Assembly: GCF_900167535.1 (NCBI RefSeq)
Contig: NZ_FUYE01000006.1
Location: forward strand, 248,001-312,000
Source: Prosthecobacter debontii
GTDB taxonomy: Bacteria > Verrucomicrobiota > Verrucomicrobiia > Verrucomicrobiales > Verrucomicrobiaceae
DNA length: 64,000 nt
Direction: 5' to 3'
The notes under the pieces were generated by a model. The model was not told where the DNA came from. It saw only the letters and a program-made list of their open reading frames with translations, and ran no database searches. The translations under genes and the position numbers were made by a program. Shown in pieces: positions 16,401 through 50,275 of this stretch. The stretch's first letter is position 1; every line of letters starts with the position of its first letter.

Positions 16401-19400
16401 TGCTGAGGACGGTGATCGGCGTGATCACGGCTCCCGGCAGACCGGATACATAGTCATTGAAGGCCACCGGGATGTCATTCACGGAGCGCACGTTCAGCGT
16501 CACCGTCGCTGGGGTGGATTGCGAGCGCTTATCCTTCATCACAAACTGGAAGCTGGCATAAGGAGTGCCATTGCCATTCGGCGCGGGCTCATAAATCACC
16601 TTCTTATCAGCCTGGGTGATGACGGTGGGCACGGTGGTGATGCTGGTGCTGCGGTTGACACCATCCGTGGTGAGATACAGGGTGCCCTGGGCAGGCAGGG
16701 TCTGGATCTGGGCGGTGAGGGCGTGGTTCTCCGCATCACTGCCGGTGAGGGTGATCACCACTTGATTATCTTCGTCAAATGTGACCGTCTGCGCATTGGC
16801 TACAGGAGGCGTGTTGGGGAGCGCCTGCACGGTCATGGTGGCAGGCACGCTGACGGTGGGGTTGGCGGGATCATTGGAACTGAGATCCACCTGCCCGAGG
16901 TAACTACCTGCCAGGAGGTTCGTGGCATCGAAGGTCACGGTGACATCCGTGGAGGCCCCCGGAGCGAGAGTGCCGTTCAGCGGAGACGGCTTGAGCCAAT
17001 CCAAGGTCTTATCCAACACGCGGATGTCATCCCACCAGGCCTCGGAACCGGTGCTGAAGTTGTAAAGCCACATCTGCGACAGCTCATCGGCATAACTGGC
17101 ATTGCGGAAAGGAATGTCGGCCTTCACCAGGGTGCCATCCACGTAGTAGTCGAAGTTTTTCGCCGTCCAGTCCAGGTTTCGAAACTCGATGTGATACCAG
17201 ACATTGGCCTGATAGCTGTAGCTCTCATCGCCGCCGGAGGAGCCGTTAACGGAAAAATTCCCTGTGCCTCGGGCATAGAACCAGATCACGTCCATGCCGT
17301 AGGTGTTATCCGTGAAGACGACGTAGCTGTCATGCGTGGTGGTGGAGCCGGAGCGCACCCAGAAGGAGATGCTCTGGGGTTTGCTGCCGCTGACAAAGTC
17401 TCGGTGGATGCCGTTGTAGTGGGAGGTGGTCCCATCATATCGATAGTGGAAGCTTTTGCTCCCTGAGGCGGCGGTGGTGGTGACCACCTCGCGGGTGCCG
17501 GTGCCGGAGTCCTGCGTCCAGTTACTGAAGGAGCCGCTTTCAAAACCATCCAGAAAGGGCAGGCCAGTGGAGCCCGCAGCGATGTTTGTCAGACGGCTAA
17601 ACTCATGTGGATGCGTCTCAGCGGCTTCATCGGACGAACTCAAGACTGGTGGTGGCATGAGGATGGCCTGGGCTGGCTGTAGAGAAGCGCCGTTTTCTCG
17701 GGGTGTCGAATTGAGCGTGTAGGTCAGGGGGGTGTCGCCTTCATTGGTGATGCGCAGGGTCTTTGTGGCTACAGCGTCTTCATACTGCGTGGAAGCGAGT
17801 GTGGTGGGGGTGACTTGGATCTTTGAACGGCCTAACGAAAAGTTGAAATTGGATCGATCTGGCGGCAGCGTCACGGATGTCGTCGCCGATGGATTGTAAC
17901 CTGCCGCTGTGGCGCGAAACTCATAGGTGCCATCGGTGAGTTTGAGCTGGTAGCGGCCATCGGCCCCGGCAGTTACGCTGCCGGAAGAGGTGCCTGTGTA
18001 AGTGAGGGTGGCTGAACCGATGCCTGCTCCACCGGTGAGAGCGGTCACGCGTCCGCTGACGGTGCTGGTCGTCTGCACGGTGAGCTGGGCCTGGCTGGTC
18101 CAGCTTTGGTTATTGGCATCCGTGGAGGTGATCACCACGCTGAAGGTGTGTGGGGTGACCGTATCTGGAGCGATGCGGATGATGAAGGGCGAGTTGCCTG
18201 TGGAGACGGTGCTATCCACCGCCACATCCCCCCAGTTCCGGGTGCCGGCCAGCACGCTGACTTTATTGCCGGTGGAGGCTACGGTCACATGGCTCGTTAG
18301 GCCTTGGGCGAGCTTGCCGCCTGCGTTCTTCATGCTGACGCTGAGGGCGATGTCTTCACCCGGATTCAGGATACCGTCATTGTTTCCCGTAGAGCCCTGC
18401 TGCCCGCTGTCGGAGGGCTGGAGGCTGGTGAGGGAGATGTAGGGCTCGGTCGCGATGATGAGCGCGCGGGCCAGGTTCATTCGGCCATTCACCGCCACCT
18501 TGCCCGTCATGCCCGCCACGCTATCTACATTGTTTAATACGGCGCTTTTGACATCCTGCCAGGAGAGGCCTGGTCGGGCGGCTTTGATCAAGGCACAAGC
18601 CCCCGCCACATGTGGGCAGGCCATGGAGGTGCCATTGAGGCTGCGATAGCTATTTCCCGGGGAGGTGGAGTAGATGCTGACCCCCGGTGCCGCCAGATCC
18701 ACAGTGATGGCCCCGTAATTGGTGAAGCTGGCCAGCCCATCGGAGTGATCACTGGCGGCCACGGAGATGATGTTCAGGGAGTCATAGGCGGCCGGGTAAG
18801 AGGGACTGGTGTCTGTGTTGCGTGAGTCATTGCCTGCGGCTGCCACGAAGAGTTGGCCTGCTACACCGGCGGCATCGATGGCGTCCTTCAGTGTCTGCGA
18901 GTAGCCGCCTCCGCCCCAGCTATTGGAGGTCATCGTCACTTGATTCGCCGTGGCATAGAGCACGGCTTCAATGGCGTCTGAGGTGGTGCCGCCGCCGCTG
19001 CTGGAGAGAAACTTCAGTGCCATCAGCTTCACCGTATGGCAGACGCCGACTACCCCGATGCCGTTCCCCCCCACAGCCCCGATGGTGCCCGCGCAGTGGG
19101 TGCCGTGGTAGTGGTCGTCCATCGGGTCTTTGTCATTGGAGACGAAATCCCAGCCATAGACATCGTCGATGTAGCCGTTGGCATCATCATCCACGCCGTT
19201 GTTGGGGATCTCATCGGTGTTCGTCCACATGTTGGCCGCTAGGTCGGGGTGCGTGTAGTCGATGCCGGTATCCACGACCCCCACGACCACGTTGGCGCTG
19301 CCCCGAGACAGCTCCCAGGCCTCGGGGGCATCGATGTCCGCATCTCCCACGCCACCTGTTTGCCCGGTGTTATTCAGGCCCCAGAGAGAGCTATACGAGG

Positions 19401-20082
19401 GGTCATTCGGCGTCAGTGAGGCAAAGACCACGTAATCCGGCTCCACGATTTTCATCGGTGCGCCTTGGAGGCGATAGTCTCGCAGCTTCAGCTCAAAGGC
19501 ATCCAAGCCTGCACTGCCGATCTCCACCAAGTAGGTCTGGGAATTCGGAATGTGCCGCCGCACCTTGCCACTGAGGCTAACTAAAAGTTCATCCAGTGAC
19601 TCACGTGTCACACCTTCTTTCAGCGTCACCAGGAAATGATCCGCGACCATGATCTGCTGATCTTGCAGGGTTTCTTCACCCGTGGCGGGGTCCTTTACCC
19701 ACTGCTCCTCGATGCGCAGCAGCGGATACTTGAAATCCGCCTCCACCACACGTTTGCGCATGTAGCGTCCCTTTTCATCAGGCCTTGTCGCCCTCTCCTC
19801 CACCCGGCGTGCGTTTTGAAGGAAGGCTTCTTTTTCCGAGCGTGAGGGGAGGTCGAGATCCGTGGACGCCTTTGGAGCCTCAGTGATCACGTTCACAGGC
19901 TCGGGTGTCTGCTGACGTGGGCCATCGACCGCGGGTGCTTCGGTCTTAGCCAACGGTAGCGATGGATGGGCCGCTACCACGGCATCACTAACTGGCGTTG
20001 CCTGCTGCCATGCCCTATAGGCAAACCATCCTGCAAGTAGGATCAGTGTGAGAAAAAGCAAGGACCTCAGGGCGCGGCGCAT
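10417..20082 (-). CDS. Giant multidomain subtilisin-like (S8) protease with three PQQ-like propeller modules
   Basis: 3221 residues from ATG 20082, chosen because MRRALRSLLFLTLILLAGWF is a signal anchor; the frame is open to 20220. A long propeptide precedes an S8 peptidase domain with catalytic Asp271 (VVDTGID), His326 (HGTHCAG) and Ser486 (GTSMACPH). Then follow a carboxypeptidase-regulatory-like domain (about 677-754) and a LamG-like sandwich (about 840-1024). Three copies of a module of about 570 residues come next. Each has paired cadherin/VCBS-like domains (SVNDIPVAFND, FDADGQSLTI) and a PQQ-type propeller (near 1296-1660, 1872-2227, 2440-2794). A fourth cadherin pair lacks a propeller. 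The C-terminus has a chitobiase C-terminal-like domain (about 3005-3095) and a calcium-type DEDNDDLPDWWE segment. It is probably a secreted or surface protease. Confidence 0.92.
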   Translation of the reverse strand: MRRALRSLLFLTLILLAGWFAYRAWQQATPVSDAVVAAHPSLPLAKTEAPAVDGPRQQTPEPVNVITEAPKASTDLDLPSRSEKEAFLQNARRVEERATRPDEKGRYMRKRVVEADFKYPLLRIEEQWVKDPATGEETLQDQQIMVADHFLVTLKEGVTRESLDELLVSLSGKVRRHIPNSQTYLVEIGSAGLDAFELKLRDYRLQGAPMKIVEPDYVVFASLTPNDPSYSSLWGLNNTGQTGGVGDADIDAPEAWELSRGSANVVVGVVDTGIDYTHPDLAANMWTNTDEIPNNGVDDDANGYIDDVYGWDFVSNDKDPMDDHYHGTHCAGTIGAVGGNGIGVVGVCHTVKLMALKFLSSSGGGTTSDAIEAVLYATANQVTMTSNSWGGGGYSQTLKDAIDAAGVAGQLFVAAAGNDSRNTDTSPSYPAAYDSLNIISVAASDHSDGLASFTNYGAITVDLAAPGVSIYSTSPGNSYRSLNGTSMACPHVAGACALIKAARPGLSWQDVKSAVLNNVDSVAGMTGKVAVNGRMNLARALIIATEPYISLTSLQPSDSGQQGSTGNNDGILNPGEDIALSVSMKNAGGKLAQGLTSHVTVASTGNKVSVLAGTRNWGDVAVDSTVSTGNSPFIIRIAPDTVTPHTFSVVITSTDANNQSWTSQAQLTVQTTSTVSGRVTALTGGAGIGSATLTYTGTSSGSVTAGADGRYQLKLTDGTYEFRATAAGYNPSATTSVTLPPDRSNFNFSLGRSKIQVTPTTLASTQYEDAVATKTLRITNEGDTPLTYTLNSTPRENGASLQPAQAILMPPPVLSSSDEAAETHPHEFSRLTNIAAGSTGLPFLDGFESGSFSNWTQDSGTGTREVVTTTAASGSKSFHYRYDGTTSHYNGIHRDFVSGSKPQSISFWVRSGSTTTHDSYVVFTDNTYGMDVIWFYARGTGNFSVNGSSGGDESYSYQANVWYHIEFRNLDWTAKNFDYYVDGTLVKADIPFRNASYADELSQMWLYNFSTGSEAWWDDIRVLDKTLDWLKPSPLNGTLAPGASTDVTVTFDATNLLAGSYLGQVDLSSNDPANPTVSVPATMTVQALPNTPPVANAQTVTFDEDNQVVITLTGSDAENHALTAQIQTLPAQGTLYLTTDGVNRSTSITTVPTVITQADKKVIYEPAPNGNGTPYASFQFVMKDKRSQSTPATVTLNVRSVNDIPVAFNDYVSGLPGAVITPITVLSNDFDADGQSLTITSFTQPLRGAVTNNGDGTLAFTPNANFTSGEDSFSYTISDGAGGTASATVNVSVGLLAGGTWPMMGGNAAHTGYYAGSLNGQTLTEAWNLKISPQPLNQVSIGAGKVFATPNIYFNETQLSAVDLTTGTLIWKKVWDTQAFSITGPSYHEGAVYVQVGKGISVDNAKVWALNTADGSTRWSSPFSAQWEEYLPPTVTDSTVYVNGGSYGGMYGYDRTSGGQRFFNSNLDQFDQWTPGVLGDKVYSFVKGQFRQHASLTGVIEWTLDLTWDWDGYSMNRTMALDAATNNAFVVNNRAGPDELVCINLTTQSVRWRVQTGFIGTPSLLGGRVYAFDGSGNVKAYDITTGALLQTYTTGIGTSGLYQPIITQDVLIASSSTTTAIHQLSTGTKIQSLNAGGIPSLSNGQLLLAGTDGILRCFGVPVSGNTAPTTSNLTVTSLEDQGVTLTLPGTDANGDPLLGIITTLPAKGTLYQTSDGVQTGAAITFVPTILKNTSRKVIYRPEPEGFGSAYATFKYKVHDGYIASAEATATLNITNVNDAPLAVDDVAYLRAGQFLDFQPTSNDIDVDGEALQIVSFTQPPHGTVTQNGDGSLRYVPLSNFTEGTDTFQYTLRDAASLTSTATVQVHISATYGREWTQFGNDAAHSGRYPGSLGTAPWVQRWEYTFANTINPVVVAEGKVFVAQNGSQGGYLHTVALDASTGGEIWRKLLPSGSLHPPSYHKGVVYLQRGNHNTDTQLWALNAGDGSVKWNSPHGAQWDGYYSPAVSDLGVYINGGNYGGIYGFNHLTGIQKFFFDLAQYDEWTPSIWKGRVYSFVEGRLIQHHPETGVAEWTLDFGWDWSGWSMDRLVCMDDDRAYVVNNTEGGNELICATLAPAGIAWRVQAGFNGTPATANGIVYACAGGKVKAYNSVTGRWLSDFTAGSETSLQGVIVVTNDLLFVSSNTKTYIFNLATKSVVQTLNFSSQVSITDDLLYLACSDKKLRVYGRSTPNNKVPVALPSHASILEEAQIPIKLEGTDGDGETLSYVVRSLPAQGTLYQTTDGVTKGAAITTVPAQVLSSTGTVIYQAPLDVSGIGVGSFSFTAHDVVSSSAVTSVTLDVTPVNDLPVAVPDRLALVPGNLLTRFRPEYNDRDPDGDALVVVSFTQPAAGSVVQNSDGSLTYTPAPEFLTGIETFNYTIQDAAGGLACADVVITLSSTLGRQWPTFGAGPDHTGYQPVSLASSSPLTLKWTNTSVVNSHPVAVANRRVYCTTGTSVIALDTVTGGQLWNYGVTSGTTLNPPTWFNNGIYIQQGNHSSSRLHRIQDTTGQVVWTAPFQAQWESYLAPAADETGVFINGGYYGGMYGFSHTGSQLFFQSLAQVSGWTPTLYNGGLYSFVTGTFSSHHKTTGASLWALTYPSSSGTSAMGRTTACAEGHAFMVLNYSDATLGTTQQLISVNLSTQATAWKVSGKYTGTPAVAHQAVFVISEAKAVHAYDLGTGRFLGTYPLPGSDTGLTTQPIVTVDSVIAASSSKTYVFDLKTRALRQTIPAGGFISLAGNSLYIAGSTGVTAYSGSTPDNAPPIALSQSVSTPEDTRATVTLQAVDPDEEALTLSITALPAAGTLHQTADGTTLGQAITTTPTVVTHAQGKVIYSPPANAHGSPLETFQYSASDGKAISQAATATLHVTSVNDAPTARNDSFQAEPRQVLSPLAVLENDSDVDGDALEIIGISKPTRGNASFNPEGSLCYIAAHDFTSGTDTFNYVLRDAGGLTSVAKVTILIGPFVDDPFATDPAFSPPGGSFDAPVAVTLTAADPAAAIHYTLDGSAPHPASPSIVSGTTVTLRETTALRAISVKGSDVSSIRNATYTLADEDNDDLPDWWEREHFGSLTAASESTDHDLDGMSDAMEFFTDTDPHSALDTFTVKPTRVLSPDGEEMQLSWESKPGRRYIVETSSDLVHWTASETVQPLRGTGALMQHTLEAESQPRLFIRVRVVNELDGP

Positions 20083-20240
20083 AATGGCCCGGAGGTTAGG
20101 TGATTGACTGATTAATGACAATCTTCTTTCACTCAGAAAAGAGCTCTTGAAACTGGAAGGAAATCTTACGTTTCGGACAACCTTTTGTCTGAAAGTGTAA
20201 GGCCTTCCAAACCAAGCCATTACCTGCGCGACACTGAGTT

Positions 20241-29788: not shown

Positions 29789-32700
29789 CTATCTTCTCCG
29801 GCGGAAGATCAGGCCGAGACAGCCGATGAGCAGGAAGAGCACACGGGAGGGCTCAGGGACGAGGAGGACGACGCTGAGGACGCCCTGGCTGTTGAAGAGG
29901 CTGGTATCCCAGCCGAGAGTATCCGGTAGGAGAGCGTTGGTGAAGTCGATGTTATCCACCCAGTTGCTGTCATTGCCTGAGCCGAGGCTCGTCCAGTCCA
30001 GGATGTTAAAGGTGTCCCCAGCTTCCGGGGTGTAACCGAGGTAGAGACGCAGGATGCTGCCGGTTTCAAGGGTGAGGGTGCCGGCGGTGAGGCGGTCCGT
30101 GGCATTGTTTCCCAGCAGGCGGAAATCGGCCAAGCTGCCGGACTCGAGGGTGAGGCCGGAGAGGAAGTCGAAGTTACCTCGGTTGGCCGCAGTGCCCCCC
30201 TGGATGCATCCACCACTCTGGATGGTGGTGTCGCCTGAGATGTCACCGGTGCCGATGAGGCTGGCGCCGCTCTTGACGAGGACCGTGCCGCTGCCGGTGC
30301 CACTGCCAGCGGTGTTGGAAATCCAGAGCGTGCCGCTTTCCACCACGGTGCCGCCGGTGTAGGTGCTGCCGGCTCCGGCGAGGCGTAGGGTGCCGATGCC
30401 TTGTTTGGCCAGGCCGCCGACACCCGAGATGATGTCGGTGACATGGATGGTGCCATTGACGCTTTCCGTGCTGATGAGCGTGCGTGCGCTGCCGAGCACG
30501 AACTCGCGATCAAAGGTGGTCGTGAAGGTGTTATTGGCGGTGGTGGTGCTGCTGGTGAATTGGCGCAGGGCTCCTTCGCCACCGCCATCCCCATTGAGGT
30601 AAAATTTGCCACCCGCCAGAGACCAGGTGCCTGCGGTGTCGTCATCGATGATGAACTGCGCTCCATCGGCGACGGTGAGCTTTTTGGCCCCATTGAGCTG
30701 AGCGGAGGTCATGAGCAGGGAGCCTTGAGAAATGAGGAGTTCACCGGTGAAGGTGCTGGCGTTGGAGCCCACACCCCAGCGGCCATTGCCGGTCTTCACC
30801 ACATTGCCCGTGCCGGTGAAGCCATTGCCGCTAAAGTTCTGGTTAGACTGGAAGTCAAAGGTGGCACCATTCGGGCCGACGGTGACGATGCGACCGGTGG
30901 TGTTGTTCACAGCGCCAAAGTTGCTGGCGGTGAGTTGAAGCGTTCCGCCATTGATATAGACATCCGCAGAGAGAGCTCCCAGGCCGGTGGTGCCGTTGAC
31001 GGAAACTGTGCCGCTGTTGATGATGGTTAGGCCGGTGTAGGTATTACCACTCTTCAGGTAGAGCGTGCCGGTGCCATCCATCTGAATGGCGCGGGTGGCG
31101 GCGCCGCTGATGATGCCGGTTTGATTCACATCACCGCTGCCGATGATACGCAGGGCTCCAGGGGCATCAATGGCTGGGGTGGAGTTGGCCGAGATGTCGA
31201 TGTTTCCGGCCAGGGAGTAAGTATCCGAGCGATGGATCACCAATCCACCGCCGCTCAGGGCAATGTTTCCGGTGATGCTGCCGGTGGTGCCGCCGTTACC
31301 GAGCTGCATCACGCCGCCGCTGATGGTGGTGCCACCGGTGTAGGTGTGATCTCCGGTGAGTTGAAGCGTGCCGGAGCTGGCTTTTTCAAAACGTCCACTG
31401 CCCGTGATGCTACCCGTGCCATTGAAGTAGTAATTGCTGGTGGCTTCGACCACGACGTCGGTGGGGCGGAGTTCGCCGACGAGATTCACGACAATGCTGT
31501 TGGGCGTGTCATCGAAGAGAACTCGATCGGCTTGGATGAAGTTGGTGGTGGCACTAGTGTCCAGGGTCTGCCAATTCATTGTGCCACCGACATTCACGGC
31601 GCTACCCGCATCCCAAGTGCTGTTTTGGGTGCCCTTCCAGACGACGATTTCACCCTGGGTGACGTCGGCGCTGACGGTGGTTCCGGTGGTGTCATACACG
31701 AGGGTGCCGGTGCTGCGACCTTCGATCTCCAGGGCAAAGCCGGAGGTGATGCCCGTGCCTGCGTAGTCGAGCAACGTGTAGAGCCCCGTGCTGAAGGGTT
31801 GCGTATTGTTCAGTCGCAGCACCACTTGGCCCGCGCCATTCCATGTTAGGCCGTTGCTGTCGGTGATGTTGATGAACGGCGTGGTGGGCAGCGTGTTGCT
31901 ATTCAGCTCAAACCGGATCGTGGAACCCCCGGCGAGGCTGAGGGAAGGCGTGGTGAAGCTGCTGCTGCCTGGGTTGACGACGGCTAGGGTGGCACCGCTC
32001 TGGGTGGCAAATCCACCGGCCGCTGTGCCGGGCAAGACGCGTAGCACCCCGGCCTCAGCCGTGGTGAGGCCCGTGGCGTTCAGAGCCCCGTTCAGGTTCA
32101 GTTCACCGGCTCCAGCTTTCACCAGCGGGCCATTGCCTGAGATGGCTCCAGTGAAGGTGAGGGTGGTGCCAGCTTCAACGATATCGACACGACCGCCACC
32201 TGCGGCCAGAGTGATGGGGCGGGAACTAGAGGTGCTGCCAGCGCCCTGGATCTGCAAGGTGCCTTGGGTGGTGGCTGAGCCAAAGTCAAAGCCGGCGATC
32301 GCCCCGCCCGTGACAATGGCGCTGCCTGCGGTCGGCAGGGAAGAGACTGGCATGGCCAGCGTGCCCTCCTGGAAGCGGATCGGGGTCGCACTGGTGAAGG
32401 TGATGCCCGATTGGATAGTCACGGTGCCCGAGGTGGTCTTAGCCACCCAACCGCCACCGCCTTGGCCGATGGCTCCCGCAGAGGTGGTGGTCATTTCCCC
32501 TGAGCGCAGGTCGAAGATCACATCCCCCACGTTGACGGCGGCCCCCGTGCTCCCGGCGGTGGCATGGTAAACGCCGCCATTGAGGGTGAAGCCGCCGTAG
32601 GATTCCCCAGTGTGGATTTCGAAACGACCTCCGGCATTGATGGTGATGAAAGTTGTCGAGGGGAGGTCGGGGTTGTTGTCCGGGCCAAAAATGAAGGTGC

Positions 32701-35700
32701 CGGTGTTATTCACCACGATGGAGACGGCATCGAAGTCACCTGCGGCACCGCGGTCGGTCAATTGAACGATCCCGCCATTGATGTTGAGGGTGCCGGCGAA
32801 GTTGTGATTGCCTAACAAATAAAGATGACCGGAGCCGTTTTTATTGATGATGCCCGTGCCGTCCAGACCTGCGCTCATGTTGAAGACGCCGTCGATGTCG
32901 AGATTCAGTGTATTCGTGCCCAGGGTCAGCACGGAGTTGAAGTTCATCGTGGCTCCCGAGCCGATCTGCTTGATCGTGTTGGTGCCGTTGAGGGTGAGGG
33001 CATTGTTGAAGGTGAAGGTATCACTGCGGTTAAACGCCAGTGTGCTATCGGTCAGGCTGATGGCCCCGGTAACACTGCCCCCTGTGCCGCCGTTACCGAG
33101 CTGAAGCGTGCCGCCGCTGACGGTGGTGCCACCGGTGTAATCATTGGCTGTGGCGAGGATGAGGGTGCCGGTGCCGGTTTTGCTGAGCACAGCGGTGCCG
33201 CTGATCTTGCCTGCGCCGGTGAAGGTGTAGTCGTTGCTGGCATCCACGGTGACGGAGAGCGGACTGACGGTGCCGGGGATCTGCACGCTGCGGTTGGTGG
33301 CCGTGTCATCGAAGCGGACGATGTCCTTCGTGATGAAGTTGGTGGCGGTGCCTGCGTTGATAAGCTGCCAGTTGAAGGTGCCTCCCACGCTCGGGTCCGT
33401 GCCGGTATCCCACACGCTGTTGACGCTGCCGGTCCACTTCACGCTGTCTGTGCCGGTGATGTTCACCTGGATCTGGGTGTTAGCGGTGTCATAGACGAGG
33501 TTGCCACTGGTGCGGCCCTCGAAACGTAGCGTCAGGCCGGAACTGATGGCGGTGCCGGAGTAGTCTAGAAGGGTAAAGAGGCCGTTGCTAAAGGCTTGAC
33601 TGTTGGTTAGGCGGAACACGGGGCTGCCGCTGAAGCTAAAGCCGTTGCTGCCGGTCACCTGCATCAGCGCCACGCCGGGAGTGGTGGAAGAAGCGAGTTC
33701 AAACTGAAGCGTGGAGGCATCCGCCAGCGTTAAGCTCGGCAGGATCATGGTGGCGGGAGTGGCCGTGTTACTGATGGCCAAGACGGCTCCAGTTTCTGCG
33801 GCAAAGCCGCCTGCTGCCGTGCCGGGCTTCAAGCGTAGCGTACCTGCGCTGGCGGTGGTAAGGGCGGTGCTATTCAGAGCTCCTTGCAGATTCAGCGCAC
33901 CGAGGCCGGTCTTCACCAGCGGGCCATTGCCGGAGATGGCTCCGGTGAAGGTGAGGGCCGTATCGGTCTCCACCACATTCACCACACCACCATTGCCAGT
34001 GAGAACAATGCTGCGGGAGGTGGTGGGGGTGCCTGCACCATCGATGCGCAGCGTGCCCTGAGTGCCCGTGCCGCCAAAGGTGAAGGCCGCATTAGCTCCA
34101 CCGCTGACCACGGCCGTGCCGGTGGCGGGAACCGCGCTGGAGACCATGGCCAGCGTGCCTTCCTTGATCTGCACATCCAGAGACGATGCCATGGTCACAC
34201 CGGCTTCCAGCGTGACGGTGCCGGAGGTGGTCTTCGCCAACACACCGCCACCGGATTGATTCAAGATACCGCCATTGCCCGTGCCCGTAATGGCCGTGGT
34301 CGCGCGGCCTGAGCGGAAGTCATACACGACTCGTCCTGCAGTGCCTGCCTCGGCGCCGGTATTGACCCCGGTGTTGCTACTCGTGATCGCACGGTATTCA
34401 CCACCATTGAGGACGATGCCGCCGTAGGATTCACCAGTGCGAATTTCATACAAACCGCCCGTGTTGATGGTGATCATGGTGTTGCTAGGCAGGTCCGGAT
34501 TGCCATCGGGACCGAAGATGAAGGTGGTGCCATTATTGACCACGATGGAGGCGGCATTGAGGTCACCACTGGCACCACGGTCGGTGAGCTGCACGACACC
34601 GCCATTGATGTTCAGGGTGCCCGTGAAACTGGAAAGGCCGAGGAGATTGAGCTGACCGCTGCCGTTTTTATTGATGATGCCAGTGCCGGTGATCCGGCCC
34701 ACTTGATCCCAGGTGCCGGTGCCATCGAAGTTCAGCGTGGCGGAGCCGAAGGAGAGCGCGGAATTCACCGTGGCGGTGCCGGTGCCGTTTTGGCGCAGGG
34801 TGTTGGTGCCGGAGAGGGTGAGAGTGTTTTCAAAGGTGAAGTCCTCGGAGCGATTGAATCCGAAGATGCTGCTGGTGAGGGCGACGGAGCCGACGACACT
34901 GCCCGTCGTGCCGCCATTGCCCAGGATGATGCCACCGCCATTGATGCTGGTGCCACCCATGTAGTCGTTATCCGTGGCCAGAGTCAGGATGCCGGTGCCG
35001 GTCTTGGCTAGGCTGGTGGTGCCGGTGATTTTTCCCGTGCCGCTGAAGGTGTAATCCGTAGCTCCGGTGACGGTCAGGGCCGTGGGAGCCACGCTGCTGT
35101 TGAGCTGCACCGCATAGCGCGTGGCGGTATCGTCAAAGCGGATATTGTCGGTCTGGATGAAGTTGGTGGCCGTGCCGCCGGTCATGAGCTGCCAGTTCTG
35201 CGTGCCGCCTACATTGGCTGCTGTGCCCACATCCCACACGCCATCGGTGGCTCCAGTCCACTTCAGGCTGTCGGTGCCGGTGATCTCCAGTTGGATGCGG
35301 GTGCCCAGTTCATCGTAAATCAGATTGCCCAGAGTGCGGCCTGAGAGCTTGAGATCAATGCCACTGCCAATGCCAAAGCCGGTGTAATCCAGCAGCGTGT
35401 AGGTGCCAGTGGCAAAGTTTTGCGCATTGGTCACATTCAGGGTGAAGCTGTTATCCATGAGGAAGAGACTCCGCACGTTGACCAAGGTCTGGTTAGGCAA
35501 GGTGGTGCGGTTCAGTTCCAGGCTGAGGGTGGCATTATCTTCCAAGATCAGCGTGGGCACATCGAAGGTGGTGGTGGCACTGCCCAGGTTTACAGCCAGG
35601 ATCGCCCCGGTATCCACGATGAAGCCGCCGGTGGAACTGACAGGATTCACGCGCAAGGTGCCCGCAGACACTTGCGTATCGCCCGTGGCCCCGAGTGTGC

Positions 35701-36826
35701 CGGTCAGATGCAGGGTGCCTGCGCCAGTTTTCTGCAGCAGCCCCGCGCCGGAGTTCGCTCCAGAGAGGGTGAGGATAGTGGTGTCCTGTGTCACCTCGAT
35801 GACCCCGGTGCCATCGGCGGCGCGGACGAGGTTGCCCCCGCGGCTGGCGGTGGCTCCGCGATACTCCAGCGTGCCGGTGGTGCCGGTGCTGCCAAAGGTG
35901 AGGGGAGAGCTACCCAGGTTCACCGCATGATTCATGATGATGCGGCCCTCCATGAGATTGATGCCGCCAGAGGTGGTGATGCTGGTGGCCCCAGAGAGCG
36001 TGACAGTGCCTGTCGTGGTCTTGTTGATGGCGGAGGTGCCACTGACGGCATAGGCGGCTCCAGAGTTGGCATTGCCGGTCAGGGTGCCGTGCGTCCAGTT
36101 CAGAGCGGTGGCACCGCTGGGGGTGATGTTACCCGCATTGAGATCCAGATTACCGCCCAGCAGATGAATGCCCCCCAGCGTTTGGGATTCCTGCCAGCTC
36201 ACCTGCCCGCCTTCATTGAGGGTGATGTAGGTGGTGTTAGGCAGGTTGGGATCCCCTGCGCCGGCATTGCCAAATTGATACACTCCGCCGTTGTTCACGA
36301 CGATGGAGACGGGGTTGAAGTTGTTGGTCAGTGCGGTGCTGGAGGTGCCGCCCCAGTTGGAAAACCGACCCTCATTGATGATGATGGTGCCGGTGAAACC
36401 CGCGTTGTCACTGTCATGGATGAAGGTGCCGCTGCCGATCTTCGTGATCGTGGCGGAGCCTGCCATGAAGCCGGTAAAACGCATCGTGCCAGTGATGTCC
36501 AGGGTGGGATCGGTGCCGGCAAAGGTGAAGGCATTGGCCAGTGTGCCCGCTAGAGTGATGGTGTTTGTGCCGGTATTATTAACGGTTAGGCGATTCAGCG
36601 TCATGGCCCCAATGTTATTGGTGCTGGTGTAAGAGCCGCTGGTGGCATTGAAGCGCACCTGCAAGGTATTGCTGCTGACCGGCACGGAGGCGGGCAGCCA
36701 ACTCGCGGCCGTGTTCCAGTTACCGTTGGTCACATTCCAGACCGACTGCGCCTGGAGAGGAACGGCAGCTAGGGTGATGAACAGGGTTGATAGGGCGAAA
36801 CCAAGACGGAAGGACTTGCTCTTCAT
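29789..36826 (-). CDS. Giant autotransporter-associated beta-strand-repeat protein with PEP-CTERM signal
   Basis: 2345 residues. A Sec signal (LGFALSTLFITLAAVPLQAQ) is followed by Gly/Thr/Asn-rich repeats of the autotransporter-associated beta-strand type (GGTTVSGGTLQLGNGG, LSKTGTGTLILATANDYTGG). Three long units of about 600 residues are recognisable from TDSLKWTG (about 517), TDSVKWTG (about 1125) and VVWKGTQN (about 1728), each with GESYGG-type landmarks. The C-terminus VPEPSRVLFLLIGCLGLIFR plus further Arg is a PEP-CTERM sorting signal: VPEP motif, transmembrane helix, Arg cluster. By family knowledge it would be cleaved by an exosortase and released or attached at the surface. No exosortase is in the window. 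It lacks the autotransporter barrel, so the repeat name does not mean type V secretion here. Confidence 0.9.
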   Translation of the reverse strand: MKSKSFRLGFALSTLFITLAAVPLQAQSVWNVTNGNWNTAASWLPASVPVSSNTLQVRFNATSGSYTSTNNIGAMTLNRLTVNNTGTNTITLAGTLANAFTFAGTDPTLDITGTMRFTGFMAGSATITKIGSGTFIHDSDNAGFTGTIIINEGRFSNWGGTSSTALTNNFNPVSIVVNNGGVYQFGNAGAGDPNLPNTTYITLNEGGQVSWQESQTLGGIHLLGGNLDLNAGNITPSGATALNWTHGTLTGNANSGAAYAVSGTSAINKTTTGTVTLSGATSITTSGGINLMEGRIIMNHAVNLGSSPLTFGSTGTTGTLEYRGATASRGGNLVRAADGTGVIEVTQDTTILTLSGANSGAGLLQKTGAGTLHLTGTLGATGDTQVSAGTLRVNPVSSTGGFIVDTGAILAVNLGSATTTFDVPTLILEDNATLSLELNRTTLPNQTLVNVRSLFLMDNSFTLNVTNAQNFATGTYTLLDYTGFGIGSGIDLKLSGRTLGNLIYDELGTRIQLEITGTDSLKWTGATDGVWDVGTAANVGGTQNWQLMTGGTATNFIQTDNIRFDDTATRYAVQLNSSVAPTALTVTGATDYTFSGTGKITGTTSLAKTGTGILTLATDNDYMGGTSINGGGIILGNGGTTGSVVGSVALTSSIFGFNRSEDFTFENTLTLSGTNTLRQNGTGTATVNSALSFGSATLNFDGTGTWDQVGRITGTGIINKNGSGQLNLLGLSSFTGTLNINGGVVQLTDRGASGDLNAASIVVNNGTTFIFGPDGNPDLPSNTMITINTGGLYEIRTGESYGGIVLNGGEYRAITSSNTGVNTGAEAGTAGRVVYDFRSGRATTAITGTGNGGILNQSGGGVLAKTTSGTVTLEAGVTMASSLDVQIKEGTLAMVSSAVPATGTAVVSGGANAAFTFGGTGTQGTLRIDGAGTPTTSRSIVLTGNGGVVNVVETDTALTFTGAISGNGPLVKTGLGALNLQGALNSTALTTASAGTLRLKPGTAAGGFAAETGAVLAISNTATPATMILPSLTLADASTLQFELASSTTPGVALMQVTGSNGFSFSGSPVFRLTNSQAFSNGLFTLLDYSGTAISSGLTLRFEGRTSGNLVYDTANTQIQVNITGTDSVKWTGSVNSVWDTGTDPSVGGTFNWQLINAGTATNFITKDIVRFDDTATNRSVQIPGTVSPLSVTVDASNDYTFTGAGKISGTAVLSKTGTGTLILATANDYTGGTTVSGGTLQLGNGGTGGSVTGAISLTDSTLAFNRSDTFTFNNALTLNGTNTIKQIGSGATMNFNSVLTLGTNTLNLDIDGVFNMSAGLDGTGIINKNGSGHLYLLGNHNFAGTLNINGGIVQLTDRGAAGDFDAVSIVVNNTGTFIFGPDNNPDLPSTTFITINAGGRFEIHTGESYGGFTLNGGVYHATAGSTGAAVNVGDVIFDLRSGEMTTTSAGAIGQGGGGWVAKTTSGTVTIQSGITFTSATPIRFQEGTLAMPVSSLPTAGSAIVTGGAIAGFDFGSATTQGTLQIQGAGSTSSSRPITLAAGGGRVDIVEAGTTLTFTGAISGNGPLVKAGAGELNLNGALNATGLTTAEAGVLRVLPGTAAGGFATQSGATLAVVNPGSSSFTTPSLSLAGGSTIRFELNSNTLPTTPFINITDSNGLTWNGAGQVVLRLNNTQPFSTGLYTLLDYAGTGITSGFALEIEGRSTGTLVYDTTGTTVSADVTQGEIVVWKGTQNSTWDAGSAVNVGGTMNWQTLDTSATTNFIQADRVLFDDTPNSIVVNLVGELRPTDVVVEATSNYYFNGTGSITGSGRFEKASSGTLQLTGDHTYTGGTTISGGVMQLGNGGTTGSITGNIALSGGGLVIHRSDTYSLAGNIDISANSTPAIDAPGALRIIGSGDVNQTGIISGAATRAIQMDGTGTLYLKSGNTYTGLTIINSGTVSVNGTTGLGALSADVYINGGTLQLTASNFGAVNNTTGRIVTVGPNGATFDFQSNQNFSGNGFTGTGNVVKTGNGRWGVGSNASTFTGELLISQGSLLMTSAQLNGAKKLTVADGAQFIIDDDTAGTWSLAGGKFYLNGDGGGEGALRQFTSSTTTANNTFTTTFDREFVLGSARTLISTESVNGTIHVTDIISGVGGLAKQGIGTLRLAGAGSTYTGGTVVESGTLWISNTAGSGTGSGTVLVKSGASLIGTGDISGDTTIQSGGCIQGGTAANRGNFDFLSGLTLESGSLADFRLLGNNATDRLTAGTLTLETGSILRLYLGYTPEAGDTFNILDWTSLGSGNDSNWVDNIDFTNALLPDTLGWDTSLFNSQGVLSVVLLVPEPSRVLFLLIGCLGLIFRRRR

Positions 36827-46977: not shown

Positions 46978-48006
46978 TTACCCATCTTCGCGTCGATTCA
47001 CGAAATAGTTCCTGGCGGCGGTGATGAACTCCGCCGGGGCTTCTTCGGTCCATTCGACGAGGCCATTGCTGGCCAGGCGCAGGTGTTGAGCGGTCTGTAG
47101 GCCAGTGAGGCGCTCATGGCGTCGTGCGTAATCACGATGTTTGCGATCCCCATGCCATTCGTGGACACAGTCGCCAGACACCCATCCCATCTGACCGCCC
47201 GTCCACTGAGCCATCTTTTGGCGCCAGGGTTCGTAAAGATCGGCATCGACCTCGAAGAAGAGGGAGCAGCCGAGGCCAATGTGGTGTTTCGTCAGGGGGA
47301 GATCAAGCGCAGCAGCGGCAAAAGCCATGTCTCCACTGCCCAACGCCATCCAGGGGTAAATGCCACTGTATTCCTGCCACAGCTCTCGCCGTGCAGCCAT
47401 GGCAAAGCCCGGATGGGCACCTGCGGTGAGGATTTCTCCCCGGCTGCCGACGCTGGGGCCGATGCGGTTGATTCGACCCTCGCGATTTGTCCAGAGGGCG
47501 CGCTCAAAGGGTTGCACCACCGCGAACGAATCCAATTTCAGTACGGTTTCCTCTGCCCAATGGGCATTCGTCATCCAGAGATCGGCATCCAGCCAGGCGA
47601 TTTTGCAAAATTGGCTAGGCACTAGCTTTTCCGCTAGATTGAGCAAGGCCTCTTTTTGAAAGAGCAGTTGCCGTTGCGGGTCCACCTGAATCTGTCTCCA
47701 GCCGGGTAGATCCGCCGTTTGAGGCACCTGGCCTGGCAACACGGCCTCCACGCCATACACAGGGATGCCCTGCACCAGCATCTGCCGCAGAAAGCGATGC
47801 AGATGCTGGCGGGGGCGTTCATACCCCTGCCAATTGAAATGACAGGTAATGACCGCCAGTGGAGCCGTCTGCCCGTGATGTAGGGCAGATGGCTCAATGA
47901 CGAAGCCTGGAAGATGGGGATCAGGCGTGTCAGGGAACGAAGGAGGCCATTTCTCGGCCTCCTTAATGGATGCCTGTCGTTTCGGCCAGGGATAACAACG
48001 GATCAT
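46978..48006 (-). CDS. GT-A type glycosyltransferase-like protein
   Basis: 342 residues, no signal peptide. PLAVITCHFNWQGYERPRQH is the first strand/helix. AWLDADLWM (DAD at 140-142) is the metal-binding DxD-type motif of GT-A enzymes. The C-terminal CVHEWHGDRKHRDYARRHERL resembles the late His motif found in several glycosyltransferases. It would transfer a sugar from a nucleotide donor in the cytoplasm. It is the last of three minus-strand genes: the two upstream small proteins are 21 bases away and overlapping. Phages often carry such transferases near tail or decoration genes, which fits the divergent lysis-like genes, but host polysaccharide synthesis is possible. Confidence 0.75.
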   Translation of the reverse strand: MIRCYPWPKRQASIKEAEKWPPSFPDTPDPHLPGFVIEPSALHHGQTAPLAVITCHFNWQGYERPRQHLHRFLRQMLVQGIPVYGVEAVLPGQVPQTADLPGWRQIQVDPQRQLLFQKEALLNLAEKLVPSQFCKIAWLDADLWMTNAHWAEETVLKLDSFAVVQPFERALWTNREGRINRIGPSVGSRGEILTAGAHPGFAMAARRELWQEYSGIYPWMALGSGDMAFAAAALDLPLTKHHIGLGCSLFFEVDADLYEPWRQKMAQWTGGQMGWVSGDCVHEWHGDRKHRDYARRHERLTGLQTAQHLRLASNGLVEWTEEAPAEFITAARNYFVNRREDG

Positions 48007-48027
48007 TGGGCGATTCGGTGAAGCGCT

Positions 48028-48447
48028 TCAGTTGATCCAGGCACCACGGACCCAGAGAACAAGGCCGTAACCATATTCCCCATAAACCGAACCAGCACTG
48101 TTAAAATAAAAGGTGCTTTGGTTCACATATTGAGCCGGTAGCATCATGTTCACGGGGATCTCCGCCACGCCGTTGCTCAGGTAAACCGTCGTGTTCAACT
48201 GGTCGTTGAAATTGCGGTCATGCAAACGAAACGACAACTCGAACGGGGTTCCCCACCATTGATCGAATTCATAGAGAGTGAGGAACATTTTCTCGGCACG
48301 GAAATTCCGTGGAAGTGTAGGCAGCGTGACCGTGACCGGATTCGACGAGTTGATTTCGTTGGCATTCACGTTCGATGACAGGAGCTCAAAGCTGAGCATG
48401 TCCGCACCAGCGCCGCCCGAGAAGGCGGGAGTATTCAGAGTGCTCAT
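48028..48447 (-). CDS. Hypothetical, phage-decoration-like beta-rich protein
   Basis: 139 residues, no signal. The composition is Asn/Ser/Phe/Tyr-rich with alternating strands: ADMLSFELLSSNVNANEINS, RAEKMFLTLYEFDQWWGTPF, DQLNTTVYLSNGVAEIPVNM and a glycine-tyrosine end (YGEYGYGLVLWVRG). It overlaps the stop of the upstream gene by four bases (ATGA), so translation is coupled. No family could be assigned; a virion surface or fibre-associated role is only suggested by the neighbours. Confidence 0.65.
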   Translation of the reverse strand: MSTLNTPAFSGGAGADMLSFELLSSNVNANEINSSNPVTVTLPTLPRNFRAEKMFLTLYEFDQWWGTPFELSFRLHDRNFNDQLNTTVYLSNGVAEIPVNMMLPAQYVNQSTFYFNSAGSVYGEYGYGLVLWVRGAWIN

Positions 48448-48698
48448 GGATCGATGACGAGTTGAACGCCCGAAGCGTAGGTGGTGGATTTGATTTCGAT
48501 GAACTTGGCGTTCGTGGACTGCACCGCGACACTCAGGCCATGGGGCAGAGTGATCTGCTGATTGGCTTGAGTTTCCGTGGCGATCCGCACCTGCATGTCA
48601 TAGCCGGTGCGGTTGAGGATGGAGACGCGACTGCACGCGAGATTCGGCAGAGGCGCATAGGATGTGGTCACAGAGACCGTGCGTAATTGCGAGGTCAT
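48444..48698 (-). CDS. Small hypothetical beta-sandwich-like protein
   Basis: 84 residues from ATG 48698 (MTSQLRTVSVTTSYAPLPNL); the frame continues upstream only with a TTG. Strands such as CSRVSILNRTGYDMQVRIAT, QQITLPHGLSVAVQSTNAKF and IEIKSTTYASGVQLVIDP suggest a compact beta-sandwich. It is the first gene of the minus-strand trio and shares a roughly 110-base divergent promoter region with the lysis-like genes. Unknown function. Confidence 0.6.
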   Translation of the reverse strand: MTSQLRTVSVTTSYAPLPNLACSRVSILNRTGYDMQVRIATETQANQQITLPHGLSVAVQSTNAKFIEIKSTTYASGVQLVIDP

Positions 48699-48810
48699 AC
48701 GAAACCGGATCGGGTGTATCACCTTTGAAGCTGTCAAATGTTAAGATAAATAATTTGTTAGGTTCGATTTTTTGAGAGTGAACAATGAGGTGCAATAATT
48801 TCAGTTGACG
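48699..48810. promoter_or_regulatory. Divergent promoter region of the phage-like gene sets
   Basis: The only AT-rich block in this neighbourhood (48725-48800) separates the two divergent trios. It contains TTTGTTAGG (48754-48762), one of the dispersed motif copies. No exact promoter boxes are claimed. Confidence 0.45.
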
Positions 48811-49044
48811 ATGTTTGGGATGATTCCCCCGATCGTTCAGATGACACTTGAGCAAGCATTGACTGCCGCTGTGGTCGCCCTCGCTGGATGCGTGGGGGGC
48901 CTGTTTACTTGGTTCAAAGGCCAATTCGCCCGTGTGGCGGAAAAACTGGAGGAATGCGAGCGCGATCGAGAGGCGCTCTGGGCCCGCGTGGCGAGCCTAG
49001 CCGCCGCCAGTGGCCTGGATGGCACCGACCTTTCCGCCGAGTGA
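48811..49044 (+). CDS. Small TM plus coiled-coil protein, lysis-cassette type
   Basis: 77 residues from ATG 48811; ATG 48820 and TTG 48805 are alternatives. One transmembrane helix (EQALTAAVVALAGCVGGLFT) is followed by a charged helix FARVAEKLEECERDREALWA and RVASLAAASG. A short TM protein with a cytoplasmic or periplasmic coiled coil next to a holin and endolysin is typical of phage lysis regions (holin-accessory or spanin-like). It lies 59 bases upstream of the holin-like gene. Confidence 0.65.
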   Translation: MFGMIPPIVQMTLEQALTAAVVALAGCVGGLFTWFKGQFARVAEKLEECERDREALWARVASLAAASGLDGTDLSAE

Positions 49045-49103
49045 GGGGCAAGCATCTCACTCAAGACAAAAAGAAAACAAAACGAACGACAACCTAACAA
49101 ATA

Positions 49104-49508
49104 ATGAAAACGAATCTATTGCGCAGTCTCACCGCTCTCTTTGCGGTCTGTTCCTTTATCGCCGGTCTAGGGGCTTACCTGGAGATCTTGCCAGTCGAAT
49201 ACGCCAAGATCGGCGGTCTCATTCTTGCCGCTGTTTTAGGCGTCAAGGAGATCGTCGTCATCATCGGGGACATCGCGGATGATGGTCAGCGCAATGGCTC
49301 CTTTAAGGTGCCGCCCGTTCCGCTCGTGCTTGCCTTTTTCCTGCCACTCTTGGCCTCCTGCTCCATGCGCGTGGATGGCACGAAGACCTTCCTGGGCCTC
49401 GACTCCACACAATGGGGAACGGTAGGGGTGGAAGCCGGCAAGGGGGCGCTGAAAAACGCCCTGCCGGTGTATCTGGAGAGCCGCCAGGGTATGGCTTTGA
49501 GCAAATGA
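49104..49508 (+). CDS. Holin-like protein fused to a lipoprotein-like C-terminal part
   Basis: 134 residues. The first half (1-60) has two hydrophobic helices, RSLTALFAVCSFIAGLGAYL and KIGGLILAAVLGVKEIVVII, the arrangement of small class II holins. After a short charged loop comes PPVPLVLAFFLPLLASC, a signal-like helix with lipobox LASC, and then a soluble tail (MRVDGTKTFLGLDSTQWGTV) as in small lipoproteins. No internal stop separates the parts, so it is either a natural fusion or two genes merged by loss of a stop. CCTAACAAA sits 3 bases before the ATG. A strong terminator follows the gene. Confidence 0.65.
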   Translation: MKTNLLRSLTALFAVCSFIAGLGAYLEILPVEYAKIGGLILAAVLGVKEIVVIIGDIADDGQRNGSFKVPPVPLVLAFFLPLLASCSMRVDGTKTFLGLDSTQWGTVGVEAGKGALKNALPVYLESRQGMALSK

Positions 49509-49522
49509 ATGAAACACCCACG

Positions 49523-49553
49523 AGAGCGGTTCGCTGAACCGCTCTTTTCTTTT
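49523..49553 (+). terminator. Strong intrinsic terminator between holin-like and endolysin genes
   Basis: AGAGCGGTTC (49523-49532) pairs perfectly with GAACCGCTCT (49536-49545), loop GCT, then TTTCTTTT. It ends just before the endolysin start, so the endolysin needs read-through or its own promoter. Confidence 0.85.
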
Positions 49554-49554
49554 G

Positions 49555-50043
49555 ATGAGTATGAATGTCTCAAAACGAACATTGGAAAATCTCTCCAGCT
49601 TGAATGACAAAGCGAGAGCGAAGCTGGAGCCTTTCGTCGCCGCAGCTCAGGAGGTGATGGTCAAATACGGTGTCAAAGTGGAGGTCATCTCAGGCCTGCG
49701 CTCCTGGCAAAAGCAGGCGGAGCTTTATGCCGAAGGGCGGACGAAACCCGGTAAAATCGTCACCAAAGCCAAGCCGGGCTCGAGCTGGCATAACTACGGC
49801 CTAGCCATTGACCTGGGGCTTTTCAAGGACGGCCAATACCTGGACTCAGAGAACCCACGCCAGGCCGATAAACTGTATCAAGAACTCGGCCAACTGGCCG
49901 CAGCTCAGGGCATCGAGTGGGCGGGCACCTGGAAGAGTTTTGCCGAAGGCCCCCATTTCCAAATCACCTTCGGCCTCACCCTGGCCCAAGCACGATCCCA
50001 GATGGAGCGGAATGGACAGGATGTGCAGAAGCTGGTGTTTTAG
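49555..50043 (+). CDS. M15-family peptidoglycan peptidase (phage-endolysin type)
   Basis: 162 residues from ATG 49555 (ATG 49561 also possible). The SxHxxGxAxD zinc motif is complete: Ser77, His79, Gly82, Ala84 and Asp86 in SSWHNYGLAID. The third zinc ligand is His134 in EGPHFQI, and GLRSWQKQAELYAEG is the usual substrate-side helix. This is the VanY/L-Ala-D-Glu peptidase fold of many phage endolysins and of CwlK. It has no signal peptide, so export would need a holin, in keeping with the gene upstream. A host murein hydrolase is less likely for the same reason. Confidence 0.85.
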   Translation: MSMNVSKRTLENLSSLNDKARAKLEPFVAAAQEVMVKYGVKVEVISGLRSWQKQAELYAEGRTKPGKIVTKAKPGSSWHNYGLAIDLGLFKDGQYLDSENPRQADKLYQELGQLAAAQGIEWAGTWKSFAEGPHFQITFGLTLAQARSQMERNGQDVQKLVF

Positions 50044-50050
50044 CAAGGTT

Positions 50051-50275
50051 CGGTAGGCCGGATGTGTCTGGCGCTGAAGACCCTGCAAACACAAGCAAAC
50101 ATCATCGCCAGATGACCCGGCGGCTATGGGTGTGGAGGGCATCTGGAGTTTTTTGCTTTCAGGTGATACTTCGGGCAGAGCTATCTGTGGATCCTCCTGG
50201 GCGGAGTTGGATAGTTTGGCGATATCATGGTGAGGTGAACCACAGCCGTTTGCGCCAAACACATCCGGCCTACCG
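50051..50275. repeat. 225-bp element bounded by 24-bp inverted repeats
   Basis: The 24-mer at 50051-50074 (starts CGGTAGGCCGGATGTGT) recurs as its reverse complement at 50252-50275 with one mismatch. The pair exactly fills the gap between two convergent genes. The sequence is REP/MITE-like (compare the CGGTAGGCCGGAT motif of enterobacterial REP units, from memory). No target-site duplication was noticed. Confidence 0.65.
50108..50154 (+). terminator. Terminator inside the inverted-repeat element, downstream of the endolysin
   Basis: CCAGATG (50108-50114) pairs with CATCTGG (50140-50146), with an inner ACCC/GGGT stem, and is followed by TTTTTT (50149-50154). Confidence 0.6.

Follow-up and report, generated by a model that had tools for sequence, protein, structure and literature searches.

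A compact island of six genes in the genome of Prosthecobacter debontii (assembly GCF_900167535.1) probably derives from a temperate T7-like phage, as an orphaned fragment in which a lysis block and three phage accessory or virion genes were left or inserted at a point of host rearrangement. Its unusual component is HOL134, a holin-like protein fused to a spanin-like lipoprotein. The island lies at positions 46978-50043 of the 64,000-nt window that we analyzed (contig NZ_FUYE01000006.1, positions 248,001-312,000 of the forward strand), and all island coordinates below are window-based. This reading stands directly on homology, on prophage context, on fused and split members of one protein family and on an invariant cysteine. 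The P. debontii genome itself is designated G000, with contigs C3, C4, C5, C12 and C29; G013, G016 and G046 are other genomes. An earlier first-pass annotation had described six open reading frames (ORFs) in two divergent trios, and all six were found intact, in the right place and on the right strand: a minus-strand trio (a glycosyltransferase-like gene, B2 and B1) faces away from a plus-strand trio (CC79, HOL134 and an M15 endolysin). The ORFs are tightly packed, with 94% of the 3.07 kb coding, and their GC content is near that of the host and lowest in B1 (52%).

HOL134 (49104-49508, plus strand) consists of a two-transmembrane holin-like half (residues 1-68), a lipoprotein signal with the lipobox cysteine Cys86, and a periplasmic tail. 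A holin-like character had been proposed for it earlier; the protein has hydrophobic segments at residues 5-23, 28-46 and 72-90 and, in addition, the internal lipobox at Cys86. A conserved tail (DDGxxNxS[FYW]) containing basic residues follows the two transmembrane segments, and then comes the third hydrophobic stretch, which ends in the lipobox. The family was gathered by iterated search and alignment, and matches were obtained in 26 of 289 genomes of the order; the fused type may recur across several families of this one order. The cysteine at the end of the third hydrophobic stretch was present in every fused member (12/12), and seven aligned members that consist of the holin half alone stop immediately past the DDG...SF tail, exactly at the fusion junction. 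The lipoprotein half alone is encoded in prophages on C3 and C4. The fused layout is common to at least eleven other gene copies, mostly in related prophages; most of the fused members elsewhere adjoin phage terminase genes, and a Rubritalea bin shows a similar layout upstream of an M15 endolysin. Since the same pieces occur in fused and split forms, HOL134 is, as judged from its sequence, a holin-like protein joined to a spanin-like lipoprotein, with a predicted cut at the lipobox by signal peptidase II.

Use of a dual start in HOL134, instead of cleavage, was considered and rejected. The fused members have no start codon at a shared position and one member has no internal start at all, so that the family as a whole is unlikely to rely on a nested second protein. 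A separate small o-spanin lipoprotein gene of the Rz/Rz1 type was not present in the island; the lipoprotein part is fused within HOL134 and separate in C3 and C4. Nor does HOL134 have the layout of a unimolecular spanin (N-terminal lipobox and C-terminal transmembrane segment), as its lipobox comes after two transmembrane segments and no such segment lies beyond it. No holin-lipoprotein fusion was found by term searches in the text of the spanin survey PMC6139136 or in a limited literature search. What is new here is one variant, the fused holin-lipoprotein, and the origin of the island is ordinary.

Downstream of HOL134, the M15 (Ply500-like) endolysin gene (49552-50043, plus strand) has a probable start at ATG 49561, giving 160 aa. 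The first-pass annotation had called it a signal-less M15 endolysin, and accordingly the protein has neither a signal peptide nor a transmembrane segment and matches phage endolysins. It was similar to PHROG endolysins (E=1.8e-29), to the Listeria phage L-Ala-D-Glu peptidase 2vo9 in the PDB (3.5e-21), with a further match to 6akv, and to the Pfam families M15_4 (1.7e-13) and VanY (2e-12). The zinc-site motifs SxH(6)D and GPH are present as SSWHNYGLAID and GPHF. The endolysin of the intact prophage on C4 (C4:165041) is 86% identical at a dN/dS of 0.07. Proteins 64-72% identical are encoded on 18 IMG/VR contigs, and in most of those inspected the relative directly follows small two-transmembrane holin candidates and has portal-, capsid- and tail-type genes around it. 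Another endolysin, 73-74% identical to that of the window, was observed inside an apparent Mu-like prophage (G016:C2:306283-307020), and its position there suggests that the endolysin moves between phage types. The gene content of a canonical lysis cassette, a signal-less endolysin adjoining a multi-transmembrane holin candidate, is present in the island.

The third gene of the trio, CC79 (48841-49044, plus strand), encodes one transmembrane segment and a coiled coil in 67 aa from ATG 48841; an earlier 79-aa ORF starts at 48805. The true start is probably ATG 48841, because similarity to the copy in the C29 prophage begins there. That copy is 94% identical (dN/dS 0.04) and directly follows the scaffold gene. 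With its transmembrane segment and coiled coil, CC79 is no more than a candidate for an i-spanin (N-terminal transmembrane segment, periplasmic coiled coil), because the charges beside the transmembrane segment differ between the two copies. Searches of 50,697 phage genomes by tblastn returned no match for CC79, HOL134 or B2.

The island had been called phage-like, a description now strongly supported, as relatives of five of its six proteins occur in prophages of P. debontii itself or of its genus. The P. debontii genome carries at least three related prophages, on C4, C29/C12 and C3. The C4 element (C4:165.0-202.4 kb), a T7-like prophage, is complete: it encodes an integrase, a DnaB-like helicase, terminase subunits (including TerL), a major head protein, a portal of the T7 type, tail tubular proteins and an internal virion protein, and it ends in a lipoprotein gene and the M15 endolysin gene. 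IMG/VR lists part of it as a 36-kb viral contig, identical over the 14.4 kb compared. C29, a 36-kb contig, is a second T7-like prophage whose best-matched structural proteins are 73-88% identical to those of C4. After CC79 its end runs into a (GGGGTCAA)n tandem repeat, and C12 begins, in the same orientation, with (GGGGTCAA)n followed by HOL134 and M15 copies at 81-82% DNA identity, both broken. Such (GGGGTCAA)n repeats were seen at both C29 ends and at the C12 end, and appear to have expanded between CC79 and HOL134. We infer that C29 joins C12 across this unclosed repeat gap, which gives the order scaffold-CC79-HOL134-M15. As the window trio has this same order, it is, with high probability, a lysis block from a T7-like phage that has stayed intact here and has decayed in C29/C12.

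Related arrangements were found in G046. An intact T7-like prophage on its contig C3 has B2, a fibre gene, a gene for a HOL134-type protein and an amidase endolysin gene adjoining one another, with B2 directly upstream. At G046:C9:277961-280702, a stand-alone block of B2, fibre, a 55-aa ORF, HOL134 and amidase lies amid host genes with intact frames, and the amidases of this block and of the C3 prophage differ with a dN/dS of 0.11. A search for co-occurrence of the six proteins outside other phage genes, which had been recommended as a check, yielded this similar block, but the island itself occurs in just one of the 68 family genomes. Two stand-alone cases do not suffice to prove that selection has retained such blocks. 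In P. debontii, the region C3:108000-146000 is also prophage-like: it matches the C4 prophage in its fibre and lipoprotein genes and in the genes next to them, and its large genes (603, 774, 437, 675, 587 and 689 aa) had no PHROG match at E 0.01, nor did the five of them that were also scanned on Pfam give a significant match. It is possibly an undescribed phage lineage.

The minus-strand trio was less uniform. The glycosyltransferase-like protein (46978-48006) has 342 aa, of which the C-terminal ~295 residues are conserved. Its label is plausible in view of a DxD-like 'WLDADL' motif, conserved as a WxDxD-like element in the family, but no glycosyltransferase family or fold was matched in Pfam, PHROG or PDB. 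Because Pfam and PDB gave no match, its designation as an enzyme is based on motif and length. Prophages of P. debontii (C3) and of its genus (G013:C11) encode relatives 45-48% identical; the one on C3 (45%) comes straight after an endolysin gene, and that on G013:C11 after a tail-fibre-like gene. B2 (48444-48737), 97 aa long with its start at TTG 48737 or perhaps ATG 48699, is by its predicted fold a small beta-sandwich phage protein. Its relatives lie in the C4 and C29 prophages (25-27% identity), in the G046:C3 prophage and in the G046:C9 block. Structure prediction, also proposed earlier for the two small proteins, gave a B2 model (pLDDT 69) that matches small Caudovirales proteins (best 42% identity, TM-score 0.76/0.85), but the B1 model was unreliable (pLDDT 48). 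PDB matches of B2 were cupin- and Ena-like, none at E 0.001 or better, and were not used. B1 (48028-48447), a beta-rich orphan of 139 aa, had no convincing relative in the 68 family genomes, in 388 phylum genomes (one marginal, E=0.009), in phages or in IMG/VR, and IMG/VR likewise contained no direct match for the glycosyltransferase-like protein. These genes do not clearly form the decoration trio that had been proposed: the fold of B2 is that of small phage proteins, but no reliable model of B1 was obtained. The coupled translation proposed for B2 and B1 is plausible because of their 4-nt overlap (ATGA).

The terminase, portal, capsid, tail and integrase genes expected of an intact T7-like prophage were absent both from the island and from the neighbouring genes that were scanned, in agreement with the first-pass annotation, and the ten neighbours scanned look host-like. 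One flank carries pirin, VOC and isochorismatase-type genes; the other has an endonuclease-like gene of the host, for which 18 further genomes of the family have orthologues. Among relatives, the block on the endonuclease side joins a gene that is now on contig C5 in P. debontii, and the block on the pirin side has different neighbours. By this gene order the island marks a junction of host rearrangement, and a clean empty site cannot be defined because the two blocks are not adjacent in relatives. Attachment-site repeats flanking the island were sought and none was convincing, the flanking repeats being short and intergenic only. The other 67 family genomes were without the island, and a close M15 endolysin occurred in just two of the 68, P. 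debontii itself and G016.

The first-pass annotation had left two origins open, a prophage remnant and a domesticated lysis cassette, and the present data favour the former. Orphaned prophage pieces are common. As the island is absent from 67 family genomes and lies at a rearrangement point, we read it as an orphaned fragment and not as a domesticated organ; that B1 occurs in no other family genome, and that the only other close M15 is among phage genes in G016, argues for a recent one. Several observations weigh against this. All six frames are intact, and M15 and CC79 are under strong purifying selection, which a dead remnant does not need, although the selection may predate insertion. The divergent layout occurs in no related prophage, all of which are co-directional. 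No flanking attachment-site repeat was found, the putative C29-C12 join spans an unclosed repeat gap, and B1 has no known phage relative. Moreover, the similar block at G046:C9 is a second case, for which the chance survival of a single fragment does not account.

Two of these observations keep domestication in consideration, as the parallel block in a second species and the six intact frames would fit a cassette by which the host bursts a fraction of its cells, so that DNA, vesicles or large surface proteins are set free, or lyses them for another element. The HOL134 and M15 copies on C12 have decayed in the same genome, whereas those of the island have not; the G046:C9 block is intact amid host genes, and the window perhaps encodes large surface proteins. 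We nevertheless regard domestication as unlikely. The conservation at a stable locus in relatives that a domesticated host cassette should show was not found, B1 being confined to one of the 68 family genomes, the locus being rearranged, and the G016 copy of M15 lying inside the Mu-like prophage; the block has no regulator gene, its endolysin and neighbours differ between the two species, and fused HOL134 relatives normally reside in prophages. A mobile lysis or satellite module, which would take its capsids from the T7-like prophages resident in the genome and bring its own lysis and virion-accessory genes, is less probable still. Related prophages are at hand as possible helpers, two stand-alone blocks occur at unrelated host loci in two species, and virion-type genes travel with the lysis genes; yet integrase, replication gene, packaging signal and flanking repeat were not found, and P. 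debontii has only one copy of the block. That the genes belong to an intact prophage reaching past the island is very improbable, as host genes stand on both sides and nothing was found in its favour; this check, named beforehand, excluded such a prophage for the neighbouring genes scanned.

Taken as an orphaned phage fragment, the island would, if expressed, operate like the canonical lysis systems of Gram-negative phages. HOL134 would permeabilize the inner membrane with its holin half, and the cytoplasmic M15 endolysin would exit through the lesion and cut the peptidoglycan. HOL134 would probably give a holin and an outer-membrane lipoprotein from one chain, cut at the internal lipobox by signal peptidase II, and the released lipoprotein half would then disrupt the outer membrane in the manner of a spanin, alone or with CC79. 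We infer the cleavage, the spanin role, this order of action and CC79 as the inner-membrane partner.

Consensus scans pointed to several candidate signals. The divergent intergenic region (48738-48840) has a promoter-like site on the plus strand (48772-48799). A 15-nt leader inverted repeat, AACCTAACAAATWAT, also a consensus match, has arms at 48750-48764, upstream of the B2 operon, and at 49091-49105, upstream of HOL134, where the second arm abuts the start of the gene; shorter CCTAACAAAT forms were also seen upstream of some host genes. A strong terminator-like hairpin with an 11-bp stem (49522-49546, plus strand) separates HOL134 from M15 within the presumed lysis operon and may set the relative expression of the two genes. 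Just right of the island, at 50051-50275, we observed a 24-nt near-perfect inverted repeat (CGGTAGGCCGGATGTGTCTGGCGC) with arms 177 nt apart. Elsewhere in the window, two very long minus-strand ORFs (10417-20220 and 29789-36826; 3267 and 2345 aa) perhaps encode large surface proteins.

The HOL134 family joins two functions that well-studied Gram-negative phages encode apart. If the chain is cut at the lipobox, holin and spanin would be made together in a fixed ratio, and the family would offer a direct test of coordinated inner- and outer-membrane disruption. The DDGxxNxSF motif followed by a lipobox is a marker by which lysis genes can be found where the prophages of this order are poorly annotated, and the parallel G046 block makes the choice between remnant and domestication testable in strain collections.

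Compared with the holin-endolysin-spanin cassettes of lambda (S-R-Rz/Rz1) and T7 (17.5-3.5-18.5/18.7), the island likewise sets small membrane proteins next to an endolysin that lacks a signal, and has a lipoprotein of spanin-like layout and a phage late-region context. It differs in that the holin-like part and the lipoprotein form one chain with an internal lipobox, and in that its endolysin is of the M15 type and the island stands alone, facing a divergent trio. As two-component and unimolecular spanins are described in the text of PMC6139136, HOL134 resembles them in having a short periplasmic tail behind the lipobox cysteine, with a gene for a transmembrane and coiled-coil protein nearby, and departs from unimolecular spanins in that two transmembrane segments precede the lipobox. 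The catalytic domain of the endolysin is like that of the M15 L-Ala-D-Glu endolysins Ply500 and LysB4 (2vo9, 6akv), but the protein is shorter (160-163 aa) and a separate cell-wall-binding domain was not seen. With the C4 and C29 prophages the island shares M15 (86% identity), CC79 (94%), the lipoprotein tail (45%) and B2 (25-27%), whereas those prophages are co-directional and carry head, tail and packaging genes, with an integrase seen in C4.

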